A stretch of DNA of 64,000 nucleotides from positions 124,001-188,000 of the forward strand of contig NZ_JARGNB010000003.1 of NCBI RefSeq assembly GCF_030167915.1, in the 5' to 3' direction. Shown here piece after piece: positions 12,273 through 35,602 of this stretch. Both the position numbers and the translations under genes were made by a program. Under the pieces are notes generated by a model. It searched no databases. It was not told where the DNA came from and was given only the letters and a program-made list of their open reading frames with translations. Position 1 is the first letter of the stretch. The number at the start of each line of letters is the position of its first letter. This DNA comes from Aquabacterium humicola (GTDB lineage Bacteria > Pseudomonadota > Gammaproteobacteria > Burkholderiales > Burkholderiaceae_C).

Positions 12273-13526
12273 TCATGCCGCTGCCGCCTCCGGCGAGCGC
12301 CCGGGCGTGCTGCTGCTGCGATAGGCCCAGAACCGCGGCAGCGCGAAGCCGGTGAGGATCACGCCCGCCAGGCAGATCGCGCCGCCGATCCAGATGGCGG
12401 CGGAAACCCCCCAGGCATCGGCCATGAAGCCGGCGCGCGCGCTGCCGATCAGCGGGCCGGTGAGGTAGCTGATCATCTCGATGCCCGCCAGCCGCCCACG
12501 TAGCGTGTTAGGAATGGTCTCGTTCCAGATCGTGCCGCGGAAGACGCCGCTGACCATGTCGGCCGCGCCGGCCGCGGCCAGGCAGGCCAGCGCGAGCATC
12601 AGGCTGGGCGCGAAGCCGAGCGCGACGATGCCCAGCGCCCACGCGGCCGCGGCGATGACCACCGCGCGGCCATGGCGCGTGACGCGGCCGGCCCAGCCGC
12701 TGAACAGGCCGATCGCCAGCGCGCCCACCGACATCGCCGACAGCAGCCAGCCCACCGACTCGGTGCGGCCGTTGGCTTGCGCCATCGCCGGGAACAGCGC
12801 CACCGGGAAGGCGAAGGCCATCGCGATGATGTCGACGATGTAGGTGCCCATCAGCACCGGCCGCGCCCACGCGAAGCGCAGGCCCTCGGCCAGGTCGGCC
12901 AGCAGGTGCGGGCGCTCCCCGGGCACGCCGGCCGTGCCCACCGCCGCGCGCGGGATGCGGGCAATGAAGAACAGCGCCGCGAGGAAGGTGGCGAAGTCGA
13001 ACAGGTAGGCGCCCACCGCGCCCCAGCGCGCCAGCAGCAGCCCGGCCAGTGCCGGCCCCGCCACCATGCCCACCGTGCCGCGCACCGAGGACAACGCGGC
13101 CACGGCGGCGAACTCCTCGGGGCGCGCGAGCTTCTGCGTCAGCGCCTCCAGCGCCGGCCGATGGAAGCCGCTGGCGCCCTGCAGCACCGCCACCAGCGCG
13201 TAGATCGCCAGCACGCTGGGCGCGGTGGCCAGCGCATTGGCCAGCAGCCCGGCCAGGCACAGCGCCATCAGCGCTTCCGACGCGATCAGCAGGCGCTTGC
13301 GGTCCACCCGGTCGGCCACCGCGCCGCCGAGCAGCCCGCAGGCGAGCACCGGCACCAGCTGCACCAGGCCCAGCAGGCCGACCTGCGCATTGGAACGGGT
13401 CAGCTCGTAGATCTGCCAAGGCACGGCCACGTAGCTGACCATCGTGCCCAGGCCGGAGATGAACTGGCTGGCGAAGAGGCGGCGGAACGCGGTGTTGTGG
13501 CGCAGCGGGCCGATGTCGATGAGCAT
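12273..13526 (-). CDS. MFS transporter, EntS (MFS_3) type
   Basis: A 417-residue permease with about 12 hydrophobic segments. It shows the MFS loop motif GGAVADRVDRKRLL between helices 2 and 3 and the N-terminal FRRLFASQFISGLGTMVSYVA typical of the EntS/MFS_3 branch, which exports enterobactin or small lipophilic compounds. No siderophore biosynthesis genes are nearby, so the substrate is open. It ends 119 bases upstream of the phospholipase gene on the same strand. Confidence 0.85.
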   Translation of the reverse strand: MLIDIGPLRHNTAFRRLFASQFISGLGTMVSYVAVPWQIYELTRSNAQVGLLGLVQLVPVLACGLLGGAVADRVDRKRLLIASEALMALCLAGLLANALATAPSVLAIYALVAVLQGASGFHRPALEALTQKLARPEEFAAVAALSSVRGTVGMVAGPALAGLLLARWGAVGAYLFDFATFLAALFFIARIPRAAVGTAGVPGERPHLLADLAEGLRFAWARPVLMGTYIVDIIAMAFAFPVALFPAMAQANGRTESVGWLLSAMSVGALAIGLFSGWAGRVTRHGRAVVIAAAAWALGIVALGFAPSLMLALACLAAAGAADMVSGVFRGTIWNETIPNTLRGRLAGIEMISYLTGPLIGSARAGFMADAWGVSAAIWIGGAICLAGVILTGFALPRFWAYRSSSTPGRSPEAAAA

Positions 13527-13581
13527 GCACGGGATTCTGGCGCGCCCGGCCGCGGGCGGGCGCTGGTGATCGCGGTCGCCT

Positions 13582-13599
13582 TCTGACGTGTCTGACGTG
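13582..13599. repeat. Perfect tandem 9-bp repeat TCTGACGTG x2
   Basis: Two adjacent copies of TCTGACGTG (13582-13590 and 13591-13599) lie 55 bases upstream of the MFS start codon, in the divergent region with the ABC_sub_bind gene. It may be a regulator site, but nothing else supports that. Confidence 0.5.
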
Positions 13600-13706
13600 T
13601 GCAACCCCCGGCCGGCCCGCTGCGCGCCGGCCCAGGTCGAGGCCAGGCCGCCCAAGCTTGCCGGTAGGCCGCCGACAGGGCAAAGTCCCTCGTCGCAGGT
13701 GCCCAG

Positions 13707-14678
13707 ATGACCGTGAACCGACGCGCCGTGCTGTTGCTGCCGCTCATGGGGCTGGAGACGGTGCGTGCGCAGGCGGCGAAGGTTCGGCTGGTGGGCTACC
13801 TGTCGCTGGCCCCGCCCGGCATCGGTCTGCGCGCGTTCCGCAGCGCCCTGCAGGCGCTGGGCTACGTGGAGAGTCACAACCTGCGCTTGCTGACCCGTTC
13901 CGCCGATGGCCACACCGACCGCCTGGACGAACACGTGGCCGGACTGCTGGCACACAAGGTCGACGTGCTGGTGGTCGTCTCGACCGCCACCGCCGTCGCG
14001 GCGCACAAGGCCACGACGACGACTCCCATCGTCTTCGTCAGCGTCATCGATCCGCTCAAGGTCGGCCTGGTGGCCAGCCTGGCCCGGCCCGGCGGCAACA
14101 TCACCGGCATCGCCGGCTGGGTGGGCAACGCCGGCTTCGCCGGCAAGTGGATCGAGCTGCTGAAGGAAGCCGCGCCGGAGATCACGCGAGTGGCCGTGCT
14201 GTCGAATGCCGCCAACCCGCAGACGGCGCAGCAGTTGAGCGAGATCGAAGTCGCCGGCAGGGCCCTGCAGCTGCGGCTCGAACTGCTCGACGCGGGCAAC
14301 CCCGCCGCACTGGAGCGGGCGCTGGGCGACACCGTCGCTCGTGGTGCGCAAGGGCTGCTGGTGGCGGGCGACCCGTTCTTCAGCGTCCAGCAGGCCCGCA
14401 TCACCCGGTTCGCGGCCAGCCGCAGGCTGCCCGCGGTGTACTTCTTTCGCTCGTTCGTCGAGGCCGGCGGGCTGATGAGCTACGGCGCGCACCAGGAGGA
14501 CTCCTATCGGCGCGCCGCCGCGTATGTGGATCGCATCCTGAAGGGTGAACGGCCGGCCGACCTGCCGGTCGAGCTGCCGGCGCGCTTCGAACTGGTGATC
14601 AACCGGCGCGCCGCGCGCGACATCGGCCTGGCGCTGCCCGCGGCGCTGCTGATGCGCGCGGACGATGTCATCGAGTGA
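13707..14678 (+). CDS. ABC-type substrate-binding protein, ABC_sub_bind (DUF534/TrpX) family, orphan
   Basis: A 323-residue periplasmic binding protein with a short N-terminal signal (NRRAVLLLPLMGLETVRAQA). The family hallmarks VSVIDPLKVGLVASLARPGGNITG and the C-terminal YVDRILKGERPADLPVELP/FELVINRRAARDIGL block are all present. The family binds amino acids or aromatic compounds for import. No permease or ATPase gene is adjacent. A homologue of the same family lies at 39196-40176, also an orphan. Confidence 0.85.
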   Translation: MTVNRRAVLLLPLMGLETVRAQAAKVRLVGYLSLAPPGIGLRAFRSALQALGYVESHNLRLLTRSADGHTDRLDEHVAGLLAHKVDVLVVVSTATAVAAHKATTTTPIVFVSVIDPLKVGLVASLARPGGNITGIAGWVGNAGFAGKWIELLKEAAPEITRVAVLSNAANPQTAQQLSEIEVAGRALQLRLELLDAGNPAALERALGDTVARGAQGLLVAGDPFFSVQQARITRFAASRRLPAVYFFRSFVEAGGLMSYGAHQEDSYRRAAAYVDRILKGERPADLPVELPARFELVINRRAARDIGLALPAALLMRADDVIE

Positions 14679-14736
14679 TCGGCGACGCCGCCGTATATTG
14701 CTCGGCACGACTGGCCCTCTTCGAGGAGACCGACGC

Positions 14737-14844
14737 ATGCAAAACCGGATCGGCATGGTGCAGCCCAATGCGCACACGGGGTCGGCGCATCGTCACAGCG
14801 CCGCGCGGTGGTGGCCCCGCCCCCATCGGAGGACTGCGCGGTGA
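14737..14844 (+). CDS. Putative small upstream ORF (35 aa), coupled to the S9 peptidase
   Basis: A GAGGAGA Shine-Dalgarno (14723-14729) precedes an ATG at 14737. The frame runs 35 codons (beginning MQNRIGMVQPNAHTG) and its TGA overlaps the GTG of the S9 peptidase in a GTGA junction. This geometry suggests a leader peptide or small protein translationally coupled to the peptidase. The sequence matches no family I recognise, and it could be a chance frame. Confidence 0.3.
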   Translation: MQNRIGMVQPNAHTGSAHRHSAARWWPRPHRRTAR

Positions 14845-19992: not shown

Positions 19993-20375
19993 CGTGGCAC
20001 CCGAGCAGTAGGCAGGCTGCGCTCCTTCTACGGTTCGTGACCCGGCAGACAGGAAGCGAAGCCAATCTACCTTGAACTTCCTGCTGGCACCATCGAGCTT
20101 CCCACCGATCCGGCAGGCGGGCCAATCCAGCGGCCGGCCGTCACGTTGAGAGGCGGCTCCTGGCCGAAACGCGTCCCTCGCTTTGCGAGAGCACTTGGAG
20201 CAGCGAGCCCAGTCTCCAGGCCACATCCACCCGCCGGCCGGCGCGGCGCCCAAGGACAGCCCGCGTGCAGGCACATCGGCGATGTACAGCGGCCGAGGCC
20301 AGAGCCGGCGACTGTGCGCCACACCGGCCGACTGCGTGCACGGCTAGACTGAATGTACGCACGACGGAGCGCGAG
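19993..20375. other. Divergent spacer, 383 bases
   Basis: It lies upstream of both the M1 peptidase (minus) and the FMN reductase (plus), so it must hold both promoters. I see no clear -35/-10 pair and no coding frame of quality. Confidence 0.4.
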
Positions 20376-20966
20376 ATGGTCGACAAGATCCTGGTGTTCT
20401 ACGGTTCCTACCGGTCCGACCGCATGGGCATTCGCCTGGCGGACTTCATCGTCGACGGGCTGCGGCAGCGTGGCGCCGAGCCCCAACTGGTCGACGCGAA
20501 GGCGCTCAACCTGCCGATGCTGGACCGCATGTACAAGGAGTACCCGCCCGGAACTGCGCCCCAGCCGCTGGAGACCCTGGCTCGCGAGATCAAGGGGGCC
20601 GACGCCTTCGTCTTCGTGACGGGCGAATACAACTGGGGGCCCCAGCCGGGCTTGAAGAACCTCACCGACCACTTCCTGGAGGAGTGGTTCTGGCGGCCGG
20701 CCGCGATTGCCAGCTATTCCGCCGGGCGCTTCTCGGGTGTGCGCTCGGGCACCCTCTGGCACGGCATCCTCAGCGAGATGGGAATGGTGGTGGTGTCGAG
20801 CACGCTGGCGGTGGGTCCGATCGCCCAAACGCTTGACGCCGCTGGCCAGCCGGTCGGCGCCTCTGGCGAGTCGCTGCGCAAGGCCTTCAGCCGCTTCGCC
20901 GACGACTTGGCCTGGTGGACCGAGGCGGCGCGAGCGCAGCGGGCGCGCCAGGCGCCGCCGTACTGA
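20376..20966 (+). CDS. NADPH-dependent FMN reductase family protein
   Basis: A 196-residue flavodoxin-like protein. The phosphate loop is FYGSYRSDRMGIRLAD and the flavin-contacting motif is VTGEYNWGPQPGLKN, both typical of PF03358 (azoreductase/chromate-reductase/NADPH:FMN oxidoreductases). It starts at an ATG preceded by GAGCGCGAG. It stands alone. The physiological electron acceptor cannot be told. Confidence 0.87.
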   Translation: MVDKILVFYGSYRSDRMGIRLADFIVDGLRQRGAEPQLVDAKALNLPMLDRMYKEYPPGTAPQPLETLAREIKGADAFVFVTGEYNWGPQPGLKNLTDHFLEEWFWRPAAIASYSAGRFSGVRSGTLWHGILSEMGMVVVSSTLAVGPIAQTLDAAGQPVGASGESLRKAFSRFADDLAWWTEAARAQRARQAPPY

Positions 20967-21203
20967 GGCTTCGGGGCAGCGGCAACCCCTTGCCAGCCCT
21001 CTGTGCTTCTGCGGAAAGCGGTCTCTCGTGGCGAACCGCTCCTGGCCGAGACGGTGAGTTCGCGGCGCCCCAGAAAGCTGCCCATCGAGCGCCACCACAC
21101 CATCACGCCAAGTTCGTGCCCGCGAGCAAGTTGACGCTCGGCAAGGCGTTCGGGCAGGGGAAGGTTCATCGTCTTCGCCCCTCAACCCCGACTGGAGACC
21201 GTC

Positions 21204-21825
21204 ATGGAATCCAACGCCAGCGCTGCACACCGCGAGCCGTGGAACAAAGGCAAGATCGTTGGACAGAAGGCGCCGTTCAAGCTGAAGGACATCTGGGCCC
21301 TGCGCATCCGGCTGCAGATGGAAGGCCGAGTTCGCGAACTCGCCCTTCAACTTGGGCATAGACAGCAAGTTGCGTGGCTGTGACCTGGTGGCCCTGAAGG
21401 TTCGCGACATCTGTCATGGCGACCAGGTGGCGGCCCGTGCCATCGTGATGCAGCACAAGACGCAGCGACCGGTTCAGTTCGAGATTACCCAGGCAACGAG
21501 AGAGGCCGTTCAGGCGTGGATCAAGCTGGCCGCGCTGAAGGCCGACGACTACCTCTTCCCGAGCCGGCTCCACGAGTCACCGCATCTCGGAACTCGGCAG
21601 TACGCTCGCATCCTCGGGGTCTGGGTCCACGACTTGGGCTTGGACCCGGCCGACTACGGTACCCACTCAATGCGGCGCACCAAGGCGACGCTGATCGACC
21701 GGCGCACCAAGAACCTGCGGGCAGTCCAGCTGTTGCTTGGCCATTCCAAGCTCGAGTCGACCGTCCGCTACCTCGGCATCGAAGTCGACGACGCTCTGGA
21801 GATCTCCGAGCAAACAGAGATCTGA
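21204..21825 (+). pseudogene. Tyrosine recombinase (phage-type integrase), frameshifted
   Basis: A good Shine-Dalgarno (GGAGACC) precedes the ATG at 21204. The frame begins MESNASAAHREPWNKGK and continues to about 21355 before running into a stop. From about 21340 the coding sense moves to another frame and gives the catalytic part: ALKVRDICHGD, then HSMRRTKATLI and LLGHSKLESTVRYLGIE, with the R..H-R/K-H-Y residues of tyrosine recombinases. The shift fits a 2-base loss at gcccTTCAAC. The whole would be about 206 residues, a short integrase type. I call it inactivated; a sequencing error is possible. Confidence 0.75.
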
Positions 21826-22008
21826 AGTCGGTCTGACTGGGTCGCGCCTCGATCCGCACGGAACGGCGCCGCCGGCGGTCCTGAAGGGCAGCTTCCTGGC
21901 GGCACCGCGAAGTTCCGGCCCCGGCCAGCAGCAGTCGGTGACGATAGACTGCTTCAGGGTGTCGGCAGGCGGTGGCCGCCGACTCGTAGATTGGAGTGAG
22001 TGAAGAAC

Positions 22009-24300: not shown

Positions 24301-26745
24301 TCACGTCCACAGGCCCGCCCATCCCCAGGCAAAGTCCGACGGTTCCTGGCCCGGCAGCGCCGCCGCGCGTGCGTGGCGCTCGCCGCAGCGAACCGTGTAC
24401 AGGCGCTGCCCATGCTCGCGCGAGCGGCGCGTCATGAAGGCAAACTGCGCCTCGTCGATCGTCCAGCACACGCGCGTGGGCAACAGCTCTGGGGAGGCCG
24501 CCGTGTAGCGCACGAGCGGTTCGCGCGTGCCGTCCGCTGTGTCTATCCGCAGCAGGATGCGTCCATGGTCGCTTCGTGGACCGGCCAGCAGCGCGCGGTG
24601 GCCGCCCGGGGACACGGACAGCGCGGCATCGTCGCTGTTCAGCGCATGCAGCTCCCGCCTGGCATCGAGGATGTAGGCACCACGGTGTCCCAGCCGGATC
24701 ACGGCAGCACCCCCGCCGCCGACCGGGCTGTGCACACGCCACGCCTCGCGCGCGAAAACCGAGGTATAGCGGCTCGATCTGCGCTCGAGGGCATGCTCCC
24801 AGAGCAGCCCGGCTGTGGCATCGACCAGTTGCAGCAGGGCTTGCTCCTCGCTCTCCTGGCGCAGGGCGAAGAAGCAGGTCGGCTCGGTCGGGTGCCAACC
24901 GACGATCTCGGCCGCCAGGTCGATCTTCCGCTCGGTGCCTTCGGCGTCGAAGACGCGGTCGCGGTCGTCGAGCGCAAGCGCGAAGTGCGAGCCATCGGCC
25001 GACCAGCCGAGCGTCGGCTGGAAAGAGCCGCGCTTGTCCGCCGAGACGACCCGCGGCGGCGCGCCGGCGTGCACCAGCAGCACCTCGGACTCGCGTGCCA
25101 CCAACAAGGCACGCCCGTCGGGCGCCGCGTCCAGGCGAGCACTATCGCCGCTCTTCTGCGCGGTCCAGCCCGCGACCGGCTCAGCCTCGCCACCGGCCTT
25201 CACGCGCCACAACCCGGCCGGCTCATCGACTTCGCGCGCTTGCGTCGCCCAGTACAGCAGCTCCATCGCCTGGGCGGCGCGGCGCTTGCCGGGGGATGCC
25301 GCAGCGGAAGCCGAGACGACCGGCGCCGCGCCGTGGAAACCACGCGCGTGCACGGCATCGGCGAGCTGCAGCTCGAGCCTGCGCGCCAATGCGCTGTCCG
25401 GCGCGATGTCCGCCGCGAGCACCCAGGTGCGGCTCGCGGCGCGCGTGAGCTCGAAGCGGTAGGTTGGCATGTCGAAGTAGTTGACGATCGCCGTCAGGTC
25501 GGCATCCAGCGCCGCATAACGCACGAGCACCTTTTGCACCTTGAAGCGCGTGTAGCTGCGGCCGTGCTTCGGATCGATGATCGCGATCGGGCGCCCTTGC
25601 GGCGGCTTCAGCACCAGGTCGGGCATGTCGGCTCCCGCGCCGCCCTCGCTCTCGCCCTCGCTCCAATACTGGTAGTGGACATCGACGCTGCCACCGGCAA
25701 ACCGGGCGCTCGCCACCGGCGCCGTGGCGCGTCCGTAAGCCACATGCCACGCTCCGGCGTGCACGCCGTGCAGTTCGACGCGGCCGCCGCAGCCGTGCAA
25801 GGTCTTGAGCACGCGCACCAGCAGCCACAGCTCATACAGGCGCCAGCGTGCGGGCCAGAACTCGGTGCGCAGAAAGTCGTGGAAGCCGCTCTCGATGCGC
25901 GCGCCTTCGGTCACGTCCGCTCCCAGCGAGCGCAGCTGCGACGAGAGCAACTGCACTTCGTCGGCGAGCGAGGCGACGGCCGGGTTGGCGGGGATGCGCT
26001 CGTCGCAATCGAACGAAGCCAGCTCGTCGAGCACCGCCGGCAGGTGCTGCTGCACGCGTTGCAGCGCGCTCGTGGCGCCGGCAGATAGCGGCACGGACGC
26101 CAGAGCCGCGCTCGTGGCTTCCACCGCTTCGACGGCGAGCTGGAGCGCCGTCAGATCCTGCGGCGAACACGCCGCTCGTTCGACCGTGTGCGTGCTGCCG
26201 GGGAACTGACGCCACATCGCCTGAAGGGTCGCGTCAGACGAGTCTTGCAGCGCGCGGCCGAGACTTGTCACCTCTTCGTCGGTCGTCCGCTGCACGAGCG
26301 ACTCGGGATCCACGCGTGCAGCCACATCCTCCAGCGCAGCGGCGATCGCGTGGGCGCGCGCGTCGAGCGACGATCGATCCGGCGCCGCACCGGCAAACGC
26401 CCATGCCGAATCCAGCCCGCTCAGATCGAGCCTCAGCTCGCCGCCTCGGAGCTGCATCTGTCCACCCAGCGGTGCGCCCTGCGCCGCGCAGTAGTCGGCG
26501 ACCTCGCTGGCCATGCGCGCAAAGCGCTGCGCGAACCGGAACAGCACGGCCACGGCATCGGTCGCATCCAACCCTTGCAGCAATTCCAGCGCACGCCGCC
26601 GTGCGGCACCCGGCTCGTCGGGCGCCGCCTCACCGAACGCGGCGATGAAGTCGCTGATGTCGGCGTCGGCGCGCAGCAGCTCGCGCAGATCGGGTGCGGC
26701 GTCTGGGGGACCCGGCGGTCGTGGGTTCCGCTTCTTCGTGGCCAT
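24301..26745 (-). CDS. Large protein: helical N-terminus, McrC-like PD-(D/E)XK nuclease domain, C-terminal beta-propeller
   Basis: An 814-residue cytoplasmic protein of unrecognised function. Residues ~1-290 are helical and Ala/Asp-rich. Residues ~295-440 carry features of the McrC/DUF2357 group of PD-(D/E)XK nucleases: YELWLLVRVLK (about 323), then MPDLVLK (about 374) and AIIDPKHGRSY (about 388), with the lysine-rich follow-up VQKVLVRYA. This gives E, D and D-x-K candidates for the metal site. Residues ~495-814 have repeated strand blocks (LGWSADGSHFALALDD, LSVSPGGHRALLAG) of a TolB/WD-type propeller. The start at 26745 is chosen as the ATG nearest the charged N-terminus (MATKKRNPRP). It is divergent from the MFS fusion. 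A defence or DNA-processing role is only an inference. Confidence 0.6.
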   Translation of the reverse strand: MATKKRNPRPPGPPDAAPDLRELLRADADISDFIAAFGEAAPDEPGAARRRALELLQGLDATDAVAVLFRFAQRFARMASEVADYCAAQGAPLGGQMQLRGGELRLDLSGLDSAWAFAGAAPDRSSLDARAHAIAAALEDVAARVDPESLVQRTTDEEVTSLGRALQDSSDATLQAMWRQFPGSTHTVERAACSPQDLTALQLAVEAVEATSAALASVPLSAGATSALQRVQQHLPAVLDELASFDCDERIPANPAVASLADEVQLLSSQLRSLGADVTEGARIESGFHDFLRTEFWPARWRLYELWLLVRVLKTLHGCGGRVELHGVHAGAWHVAYGRATAPVASARFAGGSVDVHYQYWSEGESEGGAGADMPDLVLKPPQGRPIAIIDPKHGRSYTRFKVQKVLVRYAALDADLTAIVNYFDMPTYRFELTRAASRTWVLAADIAPDSALARRLELQLADAVHARGFHGAAPVVSASAAASPGKRRAAQAMELLYWATQAREVDEPAGLWRVKAGGEAEPVAGWTAQKSGDSARLDAAPDGRALLVARESEVLLVHAGAPPRVVSADKRGSFQPTLGWSADGSHFALALDDRDRVFDAEGTERKIDLAAEIVGWHPTEPTCFFALRQESEEQALLQLVDATAGLLWEHALERRSSRYTSVFAREAWRVHSPVGGGGAAVIRLGHRGAYILDARRELHALNSDDAALSVSPGGHRALLAGPRSDHGRILLRIDTADGTREPLVRYTAASPELLPTRVCWTIDEAQFAFMTRRSREHGQRLYTVRCGERHARAAALPGQEPSDFAWGWAGLWT

Positions 26746-27401: not shown

Positions 27402-29846
27402 ATGTTCTCGCAAGGTTCCCTGAATGAGGGCGTGCGCAAGCGCGAGGTTTTCGGGTGGGCGATGTACCACTTCGCCACCGCGGGCTACACGGCCTTCCTG
27501 CCTGCCATCTGCAGTGCCTATTTCGTCGGCGTCGTCGATGGTCGCGCCGCCAAGTCGCTCGGGTCCTTGGCGGCCGCGTTGACCTTGGCCGGCCTGTTCG
27601 TGATGCTGACCATGCCGGCGGTCGGTGCATATGCCGACCTGCGCGCGGCGAAGAAGCGGCTGCTGGCACTCAGCACGGTGGGCTGCGTCGCCGCCACAGC
27701 GTCGTTGGCCGCTGCCGGTCCGGGCGACCTGTTGCTGACGATTGCCGCGATCGTGCTGTCCAACATCTTCCTTTGCTACGGCGAATCATTGATCGCAGCC
27801 TTCCTTCCCGAACTGGCGCGGCGCGACGCGATAGGCCGGGTCTCTGGCTGGGGCTGCAGCCTCGGCTACGTCGGAGGTTTGCTGACGTTGGGCCCCGGAT
27901 GGGTACTGGCGGCGCAGGCCAGCGGCGAGGCAGCGGCGCAGTTCGTTCCGGTGACGATGCTGATCACCGCGGCGGTATTTGCGGTCGCTTCGCTGACCAC
28001 TCTCGTGCTCCTGAAGGAACGAGCGATCCCGCAGCCATGCGCGTTCCAGACCGAGGGGCTGGAGGCCTCGCTGCGCCGGCTGCAGCAGACATTTCACGCG
28101 GCGCGGCGCTACCGTGACTTCGGCTGGCTGCTCGCCTCTGCGGGGGCTTGTCAGGCAGGCATCTCGATGATCGTCACGCTGGCCGCGGTTCACGCCAGGG
28201 AACTCGGCTACGAGCAGGCGGACACGATGACGCTCTACTTCCTGATGACTGCCGGGGCGGCCGTTGGCGCGCTCTTGCTCGGACACTGGCAGGACCGCGG
28301 CGGCCACCGGCGCGCACTGGCTGCCACGTTGTTGGGCTTGATCGTGACGGCGGTGCTGGCGGCCGTCGCGACGAGCGCGACGCTGTTCTTGGGGGCGGCG
28401 GTCATGGCCGGGCTGTGCATGGGCTCGAGCCAGTCGGCTGGCCGCGCGATGGTCGGTCTGCTGGCACCCCCATCTCGGCGGGCCGAGTTCTACGGCCTGT
28501 GGACCTTCGGTGTGCGGCTGTCTGGGTTGATCTTCGGTCCGCTGATCTCGGGCCTGATCACCTGGATGGACGGCCACGATCGCTTGGCGTTCGTCTCGAC
28601 GGGCCTGTTCTTCATGCTCGGTCTGTGGCTGCTGTGGCACGTCGACATGGCGCGCGGTGAGCGTGCGGCCGCCGAAACCATGGTCGTCGAAAGAGAGCGT
28701 GAAGGCGGGCCCGACGCGCACGGCTCGTATGGCCCAACTGCAACGAGCGCTGAGCACGGGCGGACCGTTGAAGCGCCGATCCGTTCGATCAGCTGGGGTG
28801 TGTTCTTCTTCCTTTTCGCCGTGAGTGTCTTCGCACTGGAAGTCTTCGTATGGATTCAGCGCGGGTTCAAGGGTGCGCAGGTGGGCTCGATGGTCCTTGT
28901 GCCCTGCTTGGTGTACTACGGGCGCCGACTCGTTGCCAGGCCGGCATTTCAGGTGGCGCTGGAGGATCCCCGGGCGCCGGTGATCTACCTGCGCTCGTTC
29001 TCACAGGAGGGCCAGGAGGCGGCCCAAGATGGAAGTCCCGGCTATGTCCGCGCCGAGAGCCGGCTCGTTCCCGGCCTTGAACGTGTCGGGCCCGTGCTGG
29101 CAATCGGGCGCCCCGGGGAACGACTAACCGTGCCGGGCGCCGCGCGCCTTTACGTTGGTCACGATGACTGGCAGCAGTTAGCGCGGAGCCTGATGCGCCA
29201 GGCGAGCCTGGTCGTCATCCGCGCAGACGCCAGGCAGGTTGGCCCGGGCTTGGCGTGGGAAATGGCCGCCGCCCACGAGGCCGTGCCGGCAGAGCGGCTG
29301 GCCATCTGGCTGCCGGGACGGCCGGACGCGCAGCAATTCGACAAGCTCCGCGCGCTCGTTCAAGAGGCGACGGGGTGCGAGCTGCAACCTGCGCCGGCAA
29401 AGGGCGGCTTCCTGCGTTTCGGGGTATTGGGGCGGACACACTGGACCGCATCGCTTGACGACGTGCCGGCCGTGCGCCGCGCGGCAGCAAGCGGGCAGGG
29501 ACCGCTTGCATCGTCTCCTTTGCGCAGCCTGCTGTCCGAGCTCAGGGCACGCGAAGTCAAGCCACCTGGCTTCGAACTTCACCGATGGGTGTGGCTGATC
29601 GTCCTGCCATGGCTCGTCGCCGTCGTTGGCGGCGGCCTCTGGTTCTCGACGCAGACGGGCAGCCCGGTCCTGCTGCAGGCGGCCCTGCTGGAGGCCACTT
29701 TCGTCGCCTTCCTTGCATTGGGGCTCGCGTTCGATTGTTACGTGAAGTGGCCGCACAAGCGCTTCGGCTCCTCGCTGATCGTCGCCGCGCTGCTGGTAGC
29801 TCACGCAGCCTGGTACATCATGCGCGTATGGCCAGGCCTTGGCTGA
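27402..29846 (+). CDS. UMF1/Atg22-type MFS permease fused to a Rossmann-like cytosolic domain and extra membrane helices
   Basis: An 814-residue protein. Residues ~10-420 form a 12-helix MFS unit like the UMF1/Atg22 branch (FGWAMYHFATAGYTAFLPAI; loop DRGGHRRAL). After a polar linker, two helices (~467-515) lead to a domain beginning VIYLRSFSQEG. It continues with IGRPGE, GAARLYVGHDDWQ, SLVVIRADARQVGPGLAWEM and RLAIWLPG. This order (LRSF, GRPGE, DDWQ, GxxWE, LLLP-type strand) is a conserved but poorly described cytosolic module found in bacterial membrane proteins, possibly nucleotide-binding or TIR-like. Two more helices end the protein. The transported or sensed molecule is unknown, and the fusion is unusual. 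Confidence 0.65.
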   Translation: MFSQGSLNEGVRKREVFGWAMYHFATAGYTAFLPAICSAYFVGVVDGRAAKSLGSLAAALTLAGLFVMLTMPAVGAYADLRAAKKRLLALSTVGCVAATASLAAAGPGDLLLTIAAIVLSNIFLCYGESLIAAFLPELARRDAIGRVSGWGCSLGYVGGLLTLGPGWVLAAQASGEAAAQFVPVTMLITAAVFAVASLTTLVLLKERAIPQPCAFQTEGLEASLRRLQQTFHAARRYRDFGWLLASAGACQAGISMIVTLAAVHARELGYEQADTMTLYFLMTAGAAVGALLLGHWQDRGGHRRALAATLLGLIVTAVLAAVATSATLFLGAAVMAGLCMGSSQSAGRAMVGLLAPPSRRAEFYGLWTFGVRLSGLIFGPLISGLITWMDGHDRLAFVSTGLFFMLGLWLLWHVDMARGERAAAETMVVEREREGGPDAHGSYGPTATSAEHGRTVEAPIRSISWGVFFFLFAVSVFALEVFVWIQRGFKGAQVGSMVLVPCLVYYGRRLVARPAFQVALEDPRAPVIYLRSFSQEGQEAAQDGSPGYVRAESRLVPGLERVGPVLAIGRPGERLTVPGAARLYVGHDDWQQLARSLMRQASLVVIRADARQVGPGLAWEMAAAHEAVPAERLAIWLPGRPDAQQFDKLRALVQEATGCELQPAPAKGGFLRFGVLGRTHWTASLDDVPAVRRAAASGQGPLASSPLRSLLSELRAREVKPPGFELHRWVWLIVLPWLVAVVGGGLWFSTQTGSPVLLQAALLEATFVAFLALGLAFDCYVKWPHKRFGSSLIVAALLVAHAAWYIMRVWPGLG

Positions 29847-32226: not shown

Positions 32227-34716
32227 TCAGTCGACCGTGGCGACCGCCAGCGCCGCCGCCGCGCCTTCGTCGAGGCCGCGTCCTTCAGACGATAGCGCCG
32301 CGGCGGTCTCCGCGCCCAGCGCGGCCTGCACGGCGCCGGCGACGCGATCGAACAGCTGCTGCTCATCGGGCGATACCGCGTCCTGGCGCAGTGCGCGCCG
32401 GGCAGCGACGAAGCCCAGCAGCCGCCCGGCGCTGCGCCAGTGCCGCTGCGCTTCGACCAGCGACAGGATCCAGCGCCAGGCCACGCCGGTGCCGAAGCGG
32501 CGCTCCGCGGCCAGCAGCTGCGGCAGCACGGCACGCGCCTCGGCAAAGGCGCGCATCGGCAGCAGCGCCTCGCCCAGCATGTACAGCGCCCACAGCCGGT
32601 TGGCGTTGTCGTCGGCGCCGGCGTCCTCGATGCGCTGCAGCAGCGCGCGGGCGCGCTCGGCGGCTTCGGGATGTCGGCCGAGCTCGATCAGCGCGGCGCA
32701 GACATTGGTCTCCGCCGCCTGCGCCATCGCATTCCAGCCTTGTTCGCGCGCGAGCCGCAGCTCCTGCTCGCGGCAGGCCAGCAGCGCGACGTGGTCGCCG
32801 CGCACGCGCGCCGCTTCGGCCAGCGCGCCGTGCACGCGCAGCTCGGTGCGCGGCGGGAGGCCGCTGGCCGCCGCGTGCTGCTGCTGCAGCTCGGCGCAAG
32901 CCGCGTCGAGCGCGGCCCCGGCCTCGCCGATCGACCGCACGCGGTGGATCAGCGCGGTCAGCAGCTCGTTCGGCTGGTCCAGCCGGCGCCACAGCGCGAC
33001 GGCCCGCTGCGCCGCCGGCTCCGCCGCCGGGTCGCGGCGCACGTTCAGCAGGTAGGCCAGCGCCGACCACCACTGGGCCTGCGTCGGCAGCGGCAGCGCG
33101 TCGCCGTGCGCCTGCATCGCCGGCTGCAGCTGCAGCATCCAGTCGGTGGCCTCCTGGCGCCAGGGCGTGAAGCCGACCAACTGCGCGGCGCGCGCGCTCA
33201 GCTGCGCGGCGGTGGCGAGCTCATGCTCGCGGGCCCACTGCAGCGCATCGCGCACGTTGTCCATCTCGGCCAGCGATTGCGCATCCGATTCGCCGCGCAC
33301 CAGCAGCGCCAGCACCGCCGCGGCATGGCGGCGGCGCACCGACCGCTGCTCGTCGGCGGTCATCGAATCGAGCGCGTAGGCGCGCATCGTCTCGAGCAGG
33401 CGGTAGCGCGGCGGGTCGTCGCCGCTGACGCCGACCAGCGAGCGTTCGACCAGCGCCGCCAGCCCGTCGACGATGTCCCAACGTCCGATGTCCTCGTCCG
33501 CGGTCAGCGTGACCGCCAGGTCCAGCGTGAAGCCGCCGGCGAACACGCCCAGCATGCGGAAGAGGCGCTGCTCCGCATCGCCCAGCAGGCCGACGCTCCA
33601 GGCCAGCGCGTCGTGCAGCGTGCGATGCCGTGCCGGCGAATCGCGGCGCCCGCGCGACAGCAGCGCGAATCGTTCGGCCAGCGCGTCGTGCACCGCGCGC
33701 AGGCCCATCAGCGGCACGCGCGCGGCGGCCATCTCCAGTGCCAGCGGCAGGCCGTCGAGCTGGCGCGCCAGCGCGGCGAGCAGCGGCCGGGCGTCGGGCG
33801 CCACCTGGAAGCGGCTGTCGGCGGCGGCGATGCGGTCCAGCAGCAGCGCCAGCGCGCCGTCGTTGGCATCGCCGGCGGGTTCGACGGCCAGCGGCTCGAT
33901 GCGCAGCAGGCGTTCGCCGGCGACGCCCAGCGGCCGCTGGCTGGTGACCAGCAGGCGCAGCCCCGGCGCATCGGCCAGACCCGCGGCCCACACGGCGCAG
34001 CGTTCGGCGAGGTGCTCGGCGTTGTCCAGCACCAGCAGCAGGGGGTCGCCGCCGCTGGGCAGCTGGCGGCGCACCTGCGCCACCGGGTCGCCGCCCTCGC
34101 CGTCGGCCAGCTGCAGGCCGAGCGCGCGGGCGATGGTGCGGGCGATCGCGCCGGGCAGCTGCTCGGCCTGTGTCAGCGGCGCGAGGTCGACCCAGGCGCC
34201 GGGGCCGGTCCAGCCGGCCAGCGTGTCGCGCGCGAGGCTGCTCTTGCCGACGCCGGGCATGCCCAGCAGCGTGGTGCAGCCGCCGCCGTCGCGCAGCCGG
34301 GCGGCCAGGTGGCTGCGGTCGGCGCCGCGGCCGTAGAGGCGCGGCGCGCCGGGCGGTGGGGCGGGCGCCGCGTCAGCGGCCGTCGCGGCGGTGGACGCCT
34401 GCGGCGGCGCCTGCAGCACCACGCTGAGCCGGTAGCCGCGGCCCGGCACGGTGGCGATGGCGTCCTCGCCCAGCAGGCGCCGCAGCGCATTGACCTGCAC
34501 CCGCAGGTTGTTCTCCTCGACGACCAGCCCGCGCCACACGGTGGCCAGCAGCTCGCTCTTGGTCAGCACCTGGTGCGGGCGCGCGGCCAGCGCGATCAGC
34601 ACGTCGAGCGCGCGGGCGCCGAGCGCGGCGGGCTGGCCGTCGACCAGCAGCTTGTATTCGGCCGGGCGCAGCTCGAAGCGGCCGCCGGGGCCGAAGCGCA
34701 GCGGCCGGGCCGGCAT
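32227..34716 (-). CDS. Winged-helix (OmpR-type) DNA-binding ATPase transcriptional regulator
   Basis: An 829-residue regulator. Residues ~1-105 form a Trans_reg_C winged helix (LDVLIALAARPHQVLTKSEL, VNALRRLLGEDAIATVPGRG). An NB-ARC/STAND-type ATPase follows, with Walker A GMPGVGKSSLA and Walker B PLLLVLDNAEHL. The C-terminal half is TPR-like helices. The type senses a signal through the ATPase and repeat region, then binds DNA. ATG at 34716 is chosen to begin the winged-helix domain. It is divergent from the hemerythrin/peroxiredoxin run, so control of that run is a reasonable but unproven guess. Confidence 0.85.
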   Translation of the reverse strand: MPARPLRFGPGGRFELRPAEYKLLVDGQPAALGARALDVLIALAARPHQVLTKSELLATVWRGLVVEENNLRVQVNALRRLLGEDAIATVPGRGYRLSVVLQAPPQASTAATAADAAPAPPPGAPRLYGRGADRSHLAARLRDGGGCTTLLGMPGVGKSSLARDTLAGWTGPGAWVDLAPLTQAEQLPGAIARTIARALGLQLADGEGGDPVAQVRRQLPSGGDPLLLVLDNAEHLAERCAVWAAGLADAPGLRLLVTSQRPLGVAGERLLRIEPLAVEPAGDANDGALALLLDRIAAADSRFQVAPDARPLLAALARQLDGLPLALEMAAARVPLMGLRAVHDALAERFALLSRGRRDSPARHRTLHDALAWSVGLLGDAEQRLFRMLGVFAGGFTLDLAVTLTADEDIGRWDIVDGLAALVERSLVGVSGDDPPRYRLLETMRAYALDSMTADEQRSVRRRHAAAVLALLVRGESDAQSLAEMDNVRDALQWAREHELATAAQLSARAAQLVGFTPWRQEATDWMLQLQPAMQAHGDALPLPTQAQWWSALAYLLNVRRDPAAEPAAQRAVALWRRLDQPNELLTALIHRVRSIGEAGAALDAACAELQQQHAAASGLPPRTELRVHGALAEAARVRGDHVALLACREQELRLAREQGWNAMAQAAETNVCAALIELGRHPEAAERARALLQRIEDAGADDNANRLWALYMLGEALLPMRAFAEARAVLPQLLAAERRFGTGVAWRWILSLVEAQRHWRSAGRLLGFVAARRALRQDAVSPDEQQLFDRVAGAVQAALGAETAAALSSEGRGLDEGAAAALAVATVD

Positions 34717-34805
34717 GTGCTCGAGGTGTCCGCTGTCCGCCAAGTCCCGCCCCGCCGTGTTGTTCGCCGGCGGCGAGCTTAAGGCAGGACGCGGCGCCGA
34801 TTTAA

Positions 34806-34813
34806 CAACGTTG
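34806..34813. promoter_or_regulatory. Palindrome CAACGTTG in the divergent regulator/hemerythrin promoter region
   Basis: An 8-base palindrome inside the AT-richest patch (TTTAACAACGTTGAA) of the 178-base divergent region. Its position fits an operator or promoter for the regulator gene, the hemerythrin gene, or both. A weak match could be chance. Confidence 0.3.
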
Positions 34814-34894
34814 AAGATGCGCCCGGACCGGCCCGCGCCGATCATGCAGGCACTGCCCGCCGACGCCCACGGCGATCTCCACCGGAGCCCCGCG

Positions 34895-35602
34895 ATGACC
34901 GAACCCGATGTCTCCGTTCCCGCCGTGATGCGCAACTACCACGAGGTGCTGCGCAACGATCTGGCCCGGGTGCTGGCGCCGCTGGCCGGGGCCGGCGACA
35001 CCACCGCGTTCGCAACCGCCTGGCGGGCCTATGTCGACGCCATCGACGTGCATGCGGCGATGGAGGACGGTGTCGAGGGCGCCGGCGGCGGCATCACCGC
35101 GCTGCTCGACCAGGTCTTCGACGGGGCCGCCGGTGCCGCGCTGTTCCGCGCCGAGCACGCGCACGAGCATCGGCTGCAGGCCGCGGTGAGCCGCGCGATC
35201 GACACCGGCCCCGCCGCGCTGCGCGAGGCCTTCGCCGCCTACCGCGCCGCCGCCGAGGCGCACCTGCAGCACGAGGAGGACGTGATGATGCCGCTGGTCG
35301 CGCGCCTGCCCGCGCCGAAGGCGCCGTTGTTCGCGTCGTGGTGCGTCAGCGCCGGCATCGCGCACGGCGGCTTCGAGCACTTCGTCGCGCATGGCGTGCA
35401 GTCGCTGTCGCGGCACGGCAGCACGAAGAACACGCCGGTCGGCGCGACCCGCGTCTTCGTGCAGGCGCTGAAGGCGGTCTGCAAGCCGGACCAGTGGCGG
35501 CGCTACCTGCCGATCGCCCGTGCCGCCGCGGCGCCCGGCATCTGGGCCGGCGTGCTGGCCGAGGTGCCGAGCCTGGAGCACGCGGCCGCGGCACTGGCCT
35601 GA
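34895..35602 (+). CDS. Hemerythrin-like (HHE domain) protein
   Basis: A 235-residue cytoplasmic protein with the spaced histidine/acid ligands of an HHE cation-binding domain: NYHEVL, DVHAAMED, EHAHEHRL and HLQHEEDVMM. These proteins hold a di-iron centre for O2, NO or peroxide sensing, or for iron handling. The length exceeds the minimal domain, and the last ~90 residues (HGGFEHFVAHGVQSL) are a family extension. ATG at 34895 follows ACCGGAGC. It heads the run with the peroxiredoxin and flavoprotein genes. Confidence 0.8.
   Translation: MTEPDVSVPAVMRNYHEVLRNDLARVLAPLAGAGDTTAFATAWRAYVDAIDVHAAMEDGVEGAGGGITALLDQVFDGAAGAALFRAEHAHEHRLQAAVSRAIDTGPAALREAFAAYRAAAEAHLQHEEDVMMPLVARLPAPKAPLFASWCVSAGIAHGGFEHFVAHGVQSLSRHGSTKNTPVGATRVFVQALKAVCKPDQWRRYLPIARAAAAPGIWAGVLAEVPSLEHAAAALA

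Follow-up and report, generated by a model that had tools for sequence, protein, structure and literature searches.

The minus-strand gene at positions 24301 to 26745 of the window, by which we mean the whole 64-kb stretch of DNA analysed here, is best explained as encoding a single-chain, very divergent McrC-type PD-(D/E)XK nuclease, in which a helical front part and a C-terminal propeller would replace the McrB partner. We assign this reading a probability of roughly 0.45. The parts of it that the sequence supports are the gene itself, the order and spacing of the nuclease motifs, the series of propeller blades and the finding of no McrB-like gene in the window.

The gene runs from an ATG at 26745 to a stop codon at 24301 (window coordinates) and comprises 814 codons. 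The 814-residue protein described in an earlier note on this DNA is thus confirmed, and its strand, which that note did not give, is minus; the plus-strand frame read at 24301-26745 is broken by a stop. The open frame extends 5′ of the ATG to 27138, which would give a product of 945 amino acids, while a GGAGG ribosome site is located just 5′ of the ATG at 26745 and the coding-type codon-position GC pattern begins near 26745, inside the longer open frame. The GC contents at the three codon positions (0.746/0.537/0.842) follow the same order as in the nine neighbouring genes for which they were computed. On the evidence of its translation, ribosome site and codon-position GC, the 814-codon gene is real. 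The earlier note had furthermore placed it in a gene-poor, atypical region. Two gaps of ~760 and ~670 bp flanking the gene are all that bears this out, whereas the GC content of the gene itself (~71%) is within the normal range of the window; the flanking stretches on both sides are lower, at 64-68%.

The middle third of the protein (residues ~290-450; 25396..25878, minus strand) is supported by sequence comparison as a highly divergent McrC/PDDEXK_7-type PD-(D/E)XK nuclease in which the residues presumed to be catalytic are retained. The translation contains the motifs YELW at residue 304, PDLVL at 375 and IIDPKHG at 389, the series from which the earlier note had proposed a McrC/DUF2357 core. 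For comparison, relatives were sought through PF04411 (PDDEXK_7), which is present in 1/100 genomes of the order. The protein carrying it matched thirteen plasmid records, twelve annotated as 'DUF2357 domain-containing protein' and one as 'nuclease domain-containing protein'. Ten of these thirteen were fetched, and seven of them show a gene for a DNA methyltransferase or for an AAA family ATPase close to the DUF2357-type gene. In an eleven-row alignment of the target with ten DUF2357-type domains (A1), all six columns of the YE, PD and D-x-K motifs are invariant. These columns place the invariant Glu of the first helix at Glu305 (YELW; codon 25831..25833, minus strand), the first presumed catalytic Asp at Asp376 (PDLVL; codon 25618..25620, minus strand) and the D-x-K motif, with its invariant D and K, at Asp391-Pro392-Lys393 (codons 25567..25575, minus strand).

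Profile comparisons of the core with these relatives gave marginal scores. With hhalign, the eleven-row comparison scored 24.9, the highest of 100 shuffles reaching 21.7, and the fourteen-row comparison scored 23.5, a value reached by 1/200 shuffles, while a plain HMM of fourteen relatives scored 1.1 bits, with 8/2000 shuffles as high and the best shuffle at 8.9. One record, L028, which carries a short annotated gene, was left out of alignments A1 and A2 and of the fourteen-protein set, and was kept in the eleven-row hhalign comparison. As hhalign and the HMM each align one short piece, an ordered set of blocks was tested instead. The blocks were learned from fourteen PDDEXK_7/DUF2357 (McrC-type) proteins, a set of ten and four viral ones, and the four-block scan was confined to the family's own range of spacing. 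All four blocks are found in order at family spacing, namely YE304-305, PD375-376, D391-x-K393 and YR429-430 (the last within P427-x-YR), with a score of 33.7 bits; the shuffles had a mean of -5.0 and a maximum of 22.1, with none of 20,000 as high, while fourteen other proteins of the window scored 6.9 or less. The shuffle figures here are optimistic in that shuffling loses local composition. The block edges and pseudocount were our own choice, and the fourteen comparison proteins were picked by hand. The fourth block was added after alignment A1 had been viewed; three blocks alone also beat every shuffle, scoring 27.5 with 0/20,000 shuffles as high at family spacing, and 27.5 against a best shuffle of 26.9 (0/20,000 as high) when wider spacing was allowed. 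Four known relatives, which had also been used to train the blocks, scored 87-103 on the same three blocks, so that the target counts as a member of the type that has diverged very far. Motif expressions that were composed after seeing the target are post hoc, and our conclusions rest on the blocks learned from other proteins.

Alignments A1 and A3 differ on the placement of the helix after D-x-K, and the block scan favours A1. In this placement the H-x-Y-R-D helix of the family reads P-x-Y-R-F in the target, Y and R being kept while H and the last D are replaced. The residues E305, D376, D391 and K393 are all retained, in the E / D / D-x-K order of the PD-(D/E)XK superfamily, and together with the four-block test they uphold the nuclease assignment made in the earlier note. 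Structure prediction gave models of low confidence. AlphaFold2 with the lone sequence returned a pLDDT of 35, which is very low, with a mostly helical N-terminal region, while for the core with five rows, four of them remote PDDEXK_7 proteins and the input therefore partly circular, it returned a pLDDT of 43 and a pTM of 0.52. The order of elements in the latter model, helix-strands-helix, is compatible with a PD-(D/E)XK fold. Foldseek searches with these two low-confidence models gave no match at E ≤ 0.001; the two lists for the pLDDT 43 model (9 and 28 rows) contained no E-value better than 2 and were treated as meaningless.

The C-terminal third of the protein (residues 506-814; 24304..25230, minus strand) is probably a six-bladed TolB-like propeller, judging from blade motifs near residues 541, 582, 618, 673, 712 and 762. 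An independent blade model was built from PD40 proteins of the same genome, in which a PD40 search gave eleven matches at E ≤ 0.001, none of them at the target locus. Ten blade windows were taken, of which one was dropped from the chain test as misplaced, and the nine left in the chain model derive mostly from two proteins of this genome. The HMM of the ten windows scored 4.9 bits against the propeller region, with 5/2000 shuffles as high. A chain of six blades spaced 30-60 residues apart scored 11.7 bits against a shuffle maximum of 4.8 (0/2000 as high), and the shorter chains were matched increasingly often, by two of the 2000 shuffles for five blades, nine for four, 16 for three and 108 for two, until a single blade was not significant (320/2000). 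Four-blade chains in the N-terminal part and the core were likewise not significant (68/1000 and 338/1000 shuffles as high, respectively). The claim of a TolB/WD-like propeller is thus sustained for the TolB/PD40 type. Taken together, the four-block and six-blade-chain results make it likely that the domain order, nuclease and then propeller, is real.

The remaining part, residues 1-285 (25891..26745, minus strand), belongs to no recognised family and is probably helical, as predicted in the very low-confidence model. Searches of the 814-aa protein against Pfam, NCBIfam, PHROGs and PADLOC gave nothing above threshold: the sole Pfam listing at E ≤ 1 was DUF6058 (E 0.054, below the cut-off), PHROGs listed phrog_5901 at E 0.29, and zero matches were listed by NCBIfam and by PADLOC (E ≤ 1). 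When the protein was searched in pieces against Pfam at E ≤ 10, there were zero matches for the core and for the propeller region, while residues 1-240 gave Hydro_N_hd (0.013), DUF6058 (0.034) and HEAT_2 (0.81), all below the cut-off. PF04411 had no match over the Pfam cut-off in the protein, the core or its own genome, and PD40 had none in the protein or its pieces. The DUF2357 model was matched neither by the whole protein (E ≤ 1) nor by the first 240 residues (E ≤ 10), which a divergent version of that domain could escape. A sequence search of solved structures with the long frame returned one row, at E 2.2; that with the propeller region returned ten, at E 0.88-2, of which nine are the plant propeller UVR8. 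None of these rows is significant.

No homologue of the whole protein was observed among 60 relatives and 21 genus, 299 family, 399 order and 398 phylum genomes, sets which overlap and each of which includes the genome of origin, and the gene was seen in 1/21 genus genomes, its own only. The family, order and phylum searches scored two to three first-look candidates per genome and may have missed weak relatives. A search of the core against 369 class genomes at E ≤ 1 gave matches in 68, its own included, with a best other E-value of 0.008; at the fourteen non-self loci that it returned, frames of more than 150 aa were scanned for YE-x-W and D-[PA]-K-[HY], which yielded one lone YEAW and no homologue. 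The genome collection was also scanned twice by pattern, with 18 and 60 stretches matching and none confirmed; 8-residue patterns are estimated to miss many relatives below ~60% identity. Two viral scans and searches of plasmids and phages likewise produced no homologue of the protein. A match of 53 aa in one genome (G024; E 9e-4) was rejected as noise by eye, the frames there being shadow-like and holding no propeller or nuclease. The absence of homologues is not proven by these searches.

By Pfam, the neighbours of the gene comprise an S9 peptidase, an M1 aminopeptidase, an FMN reductase, a tyrosine recombinase remnant, a PF00144 serine hydrolase, an MFS fusion, a possible glycine-zipper protein, a PQQ/BamB-like propeller protein and a regulator with an ATPase domain. 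PADLOC (E ≤ 0.01) identified zero defence families among ten neighbours, these nine together with the frame at 12276-14777. No McrB-like AAA+ GTPase was found in the 64-kb window. A tblastn search of the window gave nothing below E 0.3 for six proteins encoded next to DUF2357 genes, five of them with a P-loop, and nothing below E 0.09 when two DUF2357 proteins were included. A P-loop-like motif occurs in five long frames of the window, among them the regulator at 32230-34935; the remaining four are, by eye, not McrB.

Both of the unusual neighbours to which the earlier note drew attention, a broken integrase and a divergently transcribed strange fusion, are present. The former is a tyrosine recombinase at ~21.2-21.8 kb (approximate bounds 21204..21825, plus strand), which is split over two frames and matches PF00589 and PHROG integrase families. 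DNA pieces 78-81% identical to this small split recombinase (21127-21826) are found in G020 (two places) and G015, as well as in G016 (two places) and G011 (short). An 893-bp segment containing the FMN reductase gene (20161-21053) has a 98.7% identical inverted copy at G000:C40:111269-112161 in the same genome, a recent duplication. The fusion (27420..29846, plus strand) was identified through Pfam, genome and plasmid searches as an MFS (Atg22-like) transporter that carries an additional C-terminal domain of no Pfam family. Among the genus genomes, the MFS part alone matches well in 4/21 (56-60%) and the C-terminal part alone in one (34%), while in plasmids five of the eight matching records match the C-terminal part only (four Streptomyces and one Embleya) and three the MFS part only. 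The C-terminal part is matched in 3/300 order genomes, its own included. The fusion was considered as a functional partner and, since its two parts were found separately where they were found elsewhere, left as a bystander. The relative of its C-terminal domain in G020 lies in a 981-aa frame (L051 8527-11469), with a 531-aa frame containing 'VMPYG' (L051 5849-7441) nearby and NADH-dehydrogenase-type genes on the other side. Pfam gave no match at E ≤ 0.01 for the 981-aa or the 531-aa frame.

In the explanation we prefer, the helical N-terminal part would probably occupy the place of McrC's DUF2357, and the six-bladed TolB-type propeller would be the likely binding or sensing module. The propeller, perhaps with the helical part, may restrain the nuclease or direct it to its target. 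Nucleic-acid cleavage would then be released when a ligand derived from an invader or from damage is bound, and would proceed without the McrB motor required by classical McrC. The catalytic activity, the gating or aiming by the propeller and helical front, and the action on invading nucleic acid are what we infer from this architecture. Counted against it are that Pfam finds neither PDDEXK_7 nor PD40, that the profile scores are marginal, that the helix motif is altered, that the AlphaFold2 models have low pLDDT and no Foldseek match at E ≤ 0.001, that a single blade is not significant, and that neither a PADLOC defence gene among the ten neighbours nor a homologue with conserved context was found. 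That the motifs are coincidental and the protein an unrelated orphan would fit the negative or marginal standard profile searches, and likewise the failure to obtain a confident model, but four ordered blocks unmatched in 20,000 shuffles and unapproached in fourteen other window proteins make this the least probable of the readings. Both folds could also be correctly identified and the nuclease inactive, serving as a scaffold. The replacement of H by P and D by F after D-x-K would be in keeping with this, as would the inactivated PD-(D/E)xK domains reported for some McrC homologues in passages of a census of McrBC systems (PMC11090510); with E305, D376, D391 and K393 all in place, however, we consider it distinctly improbable.

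A further explanation accepts the McrC-type fold and assigns it to housekeeping DNA repair or processing, or to a recently captured gene without a selected role. The peptidases, FMN reductase, PF00144 serine hydrolase and PQQ/BamB-type propeller among the Pfam neighbours, the lack of any PADLOC family there, the presence in one of 21 genus genomes and the broken recombinase and recent duplication of the region would agree with it. A housekeeping enzyme would, however, be expected in more than one of those 21 genomes, and we regard this explanation as possible, if somewhat unlikely. The divergent McrC-type nuclease remains our preferred reading; its stronger form, a one-protein restriction or abortive-infection nuclease from a branch of the McrBC lineage that has no motor, with the TolB-type propeller sensor in place of McrB, is doubtful. 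Any role in defence is a guess, for which the usual role of the family and the occurrence in a single genus genome speak, and against which stands the lack of a defence neighbour. If confirmed by laboratory work, the combination of a nuclease of a type known from restriction systems against viruses and a ring-shaped, sensor-like domain would be an unusual arrangement. It would show that nucleases of the McrC type can be re-wired so as to work with a binding domain, and a single gene would provide a simple system in which to ask what the propeller senses. The weight of the case is that of one sequence until relatives or activity are found.

In comparison with known systems, the protein is not McrC itself, since searches for a DUF2357 domain and, within the window, for a McrB neighbour found neither. 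The N-terminal DUF2357 of McrC is described as activating McrB (PMC11090510, in part), and McrC nucleases as working together with the McrB motor (passages of PMC11090510 and PMC12707154). Relative to DUF2357/McrBC-type proteins, the target has an added propeller, while neither a DUF2357 domain nor, in the window, an AAA+ partner was detected. The fusion partners of McrC homologues listed in the census passages include coiled coils and cold-shock, Ig-like, Hsp70-like and EVE domains, while 'propeller' and 'WD40' have zero occurrences in the main text of that census (PMC11090510), and no nuclease-propeller protein of this kind was among the matches listed in literature searches on McrC, DUF2357, PDDEXK, propeller and WD40. 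The six spaced blade motifs resemble the SPDG-type blade of TolB/PD40 propellers, from which the target differs in having no Pfam PD40 match and in being joined to a nuclease rather than to a peptidase or Tol function. It falls below all profile thresholds tried for PDDEXK_7 (PF04411) proteins and its H-x-Y-R-D helix is altered, but it shares with them and with DUF2357 proteins four blocks (YE helix, PD, D-x-K and x-Y-R) whose order and spacing are those of the family. As in McrC of Escherichia coli McrBC and CnuC of CoCoNuT, a putative PD-(D/E)XK nuclease is contained within a larger multi-domain chain, and the order of its motifs suggests that the protein works like a McrC-type nuclease.
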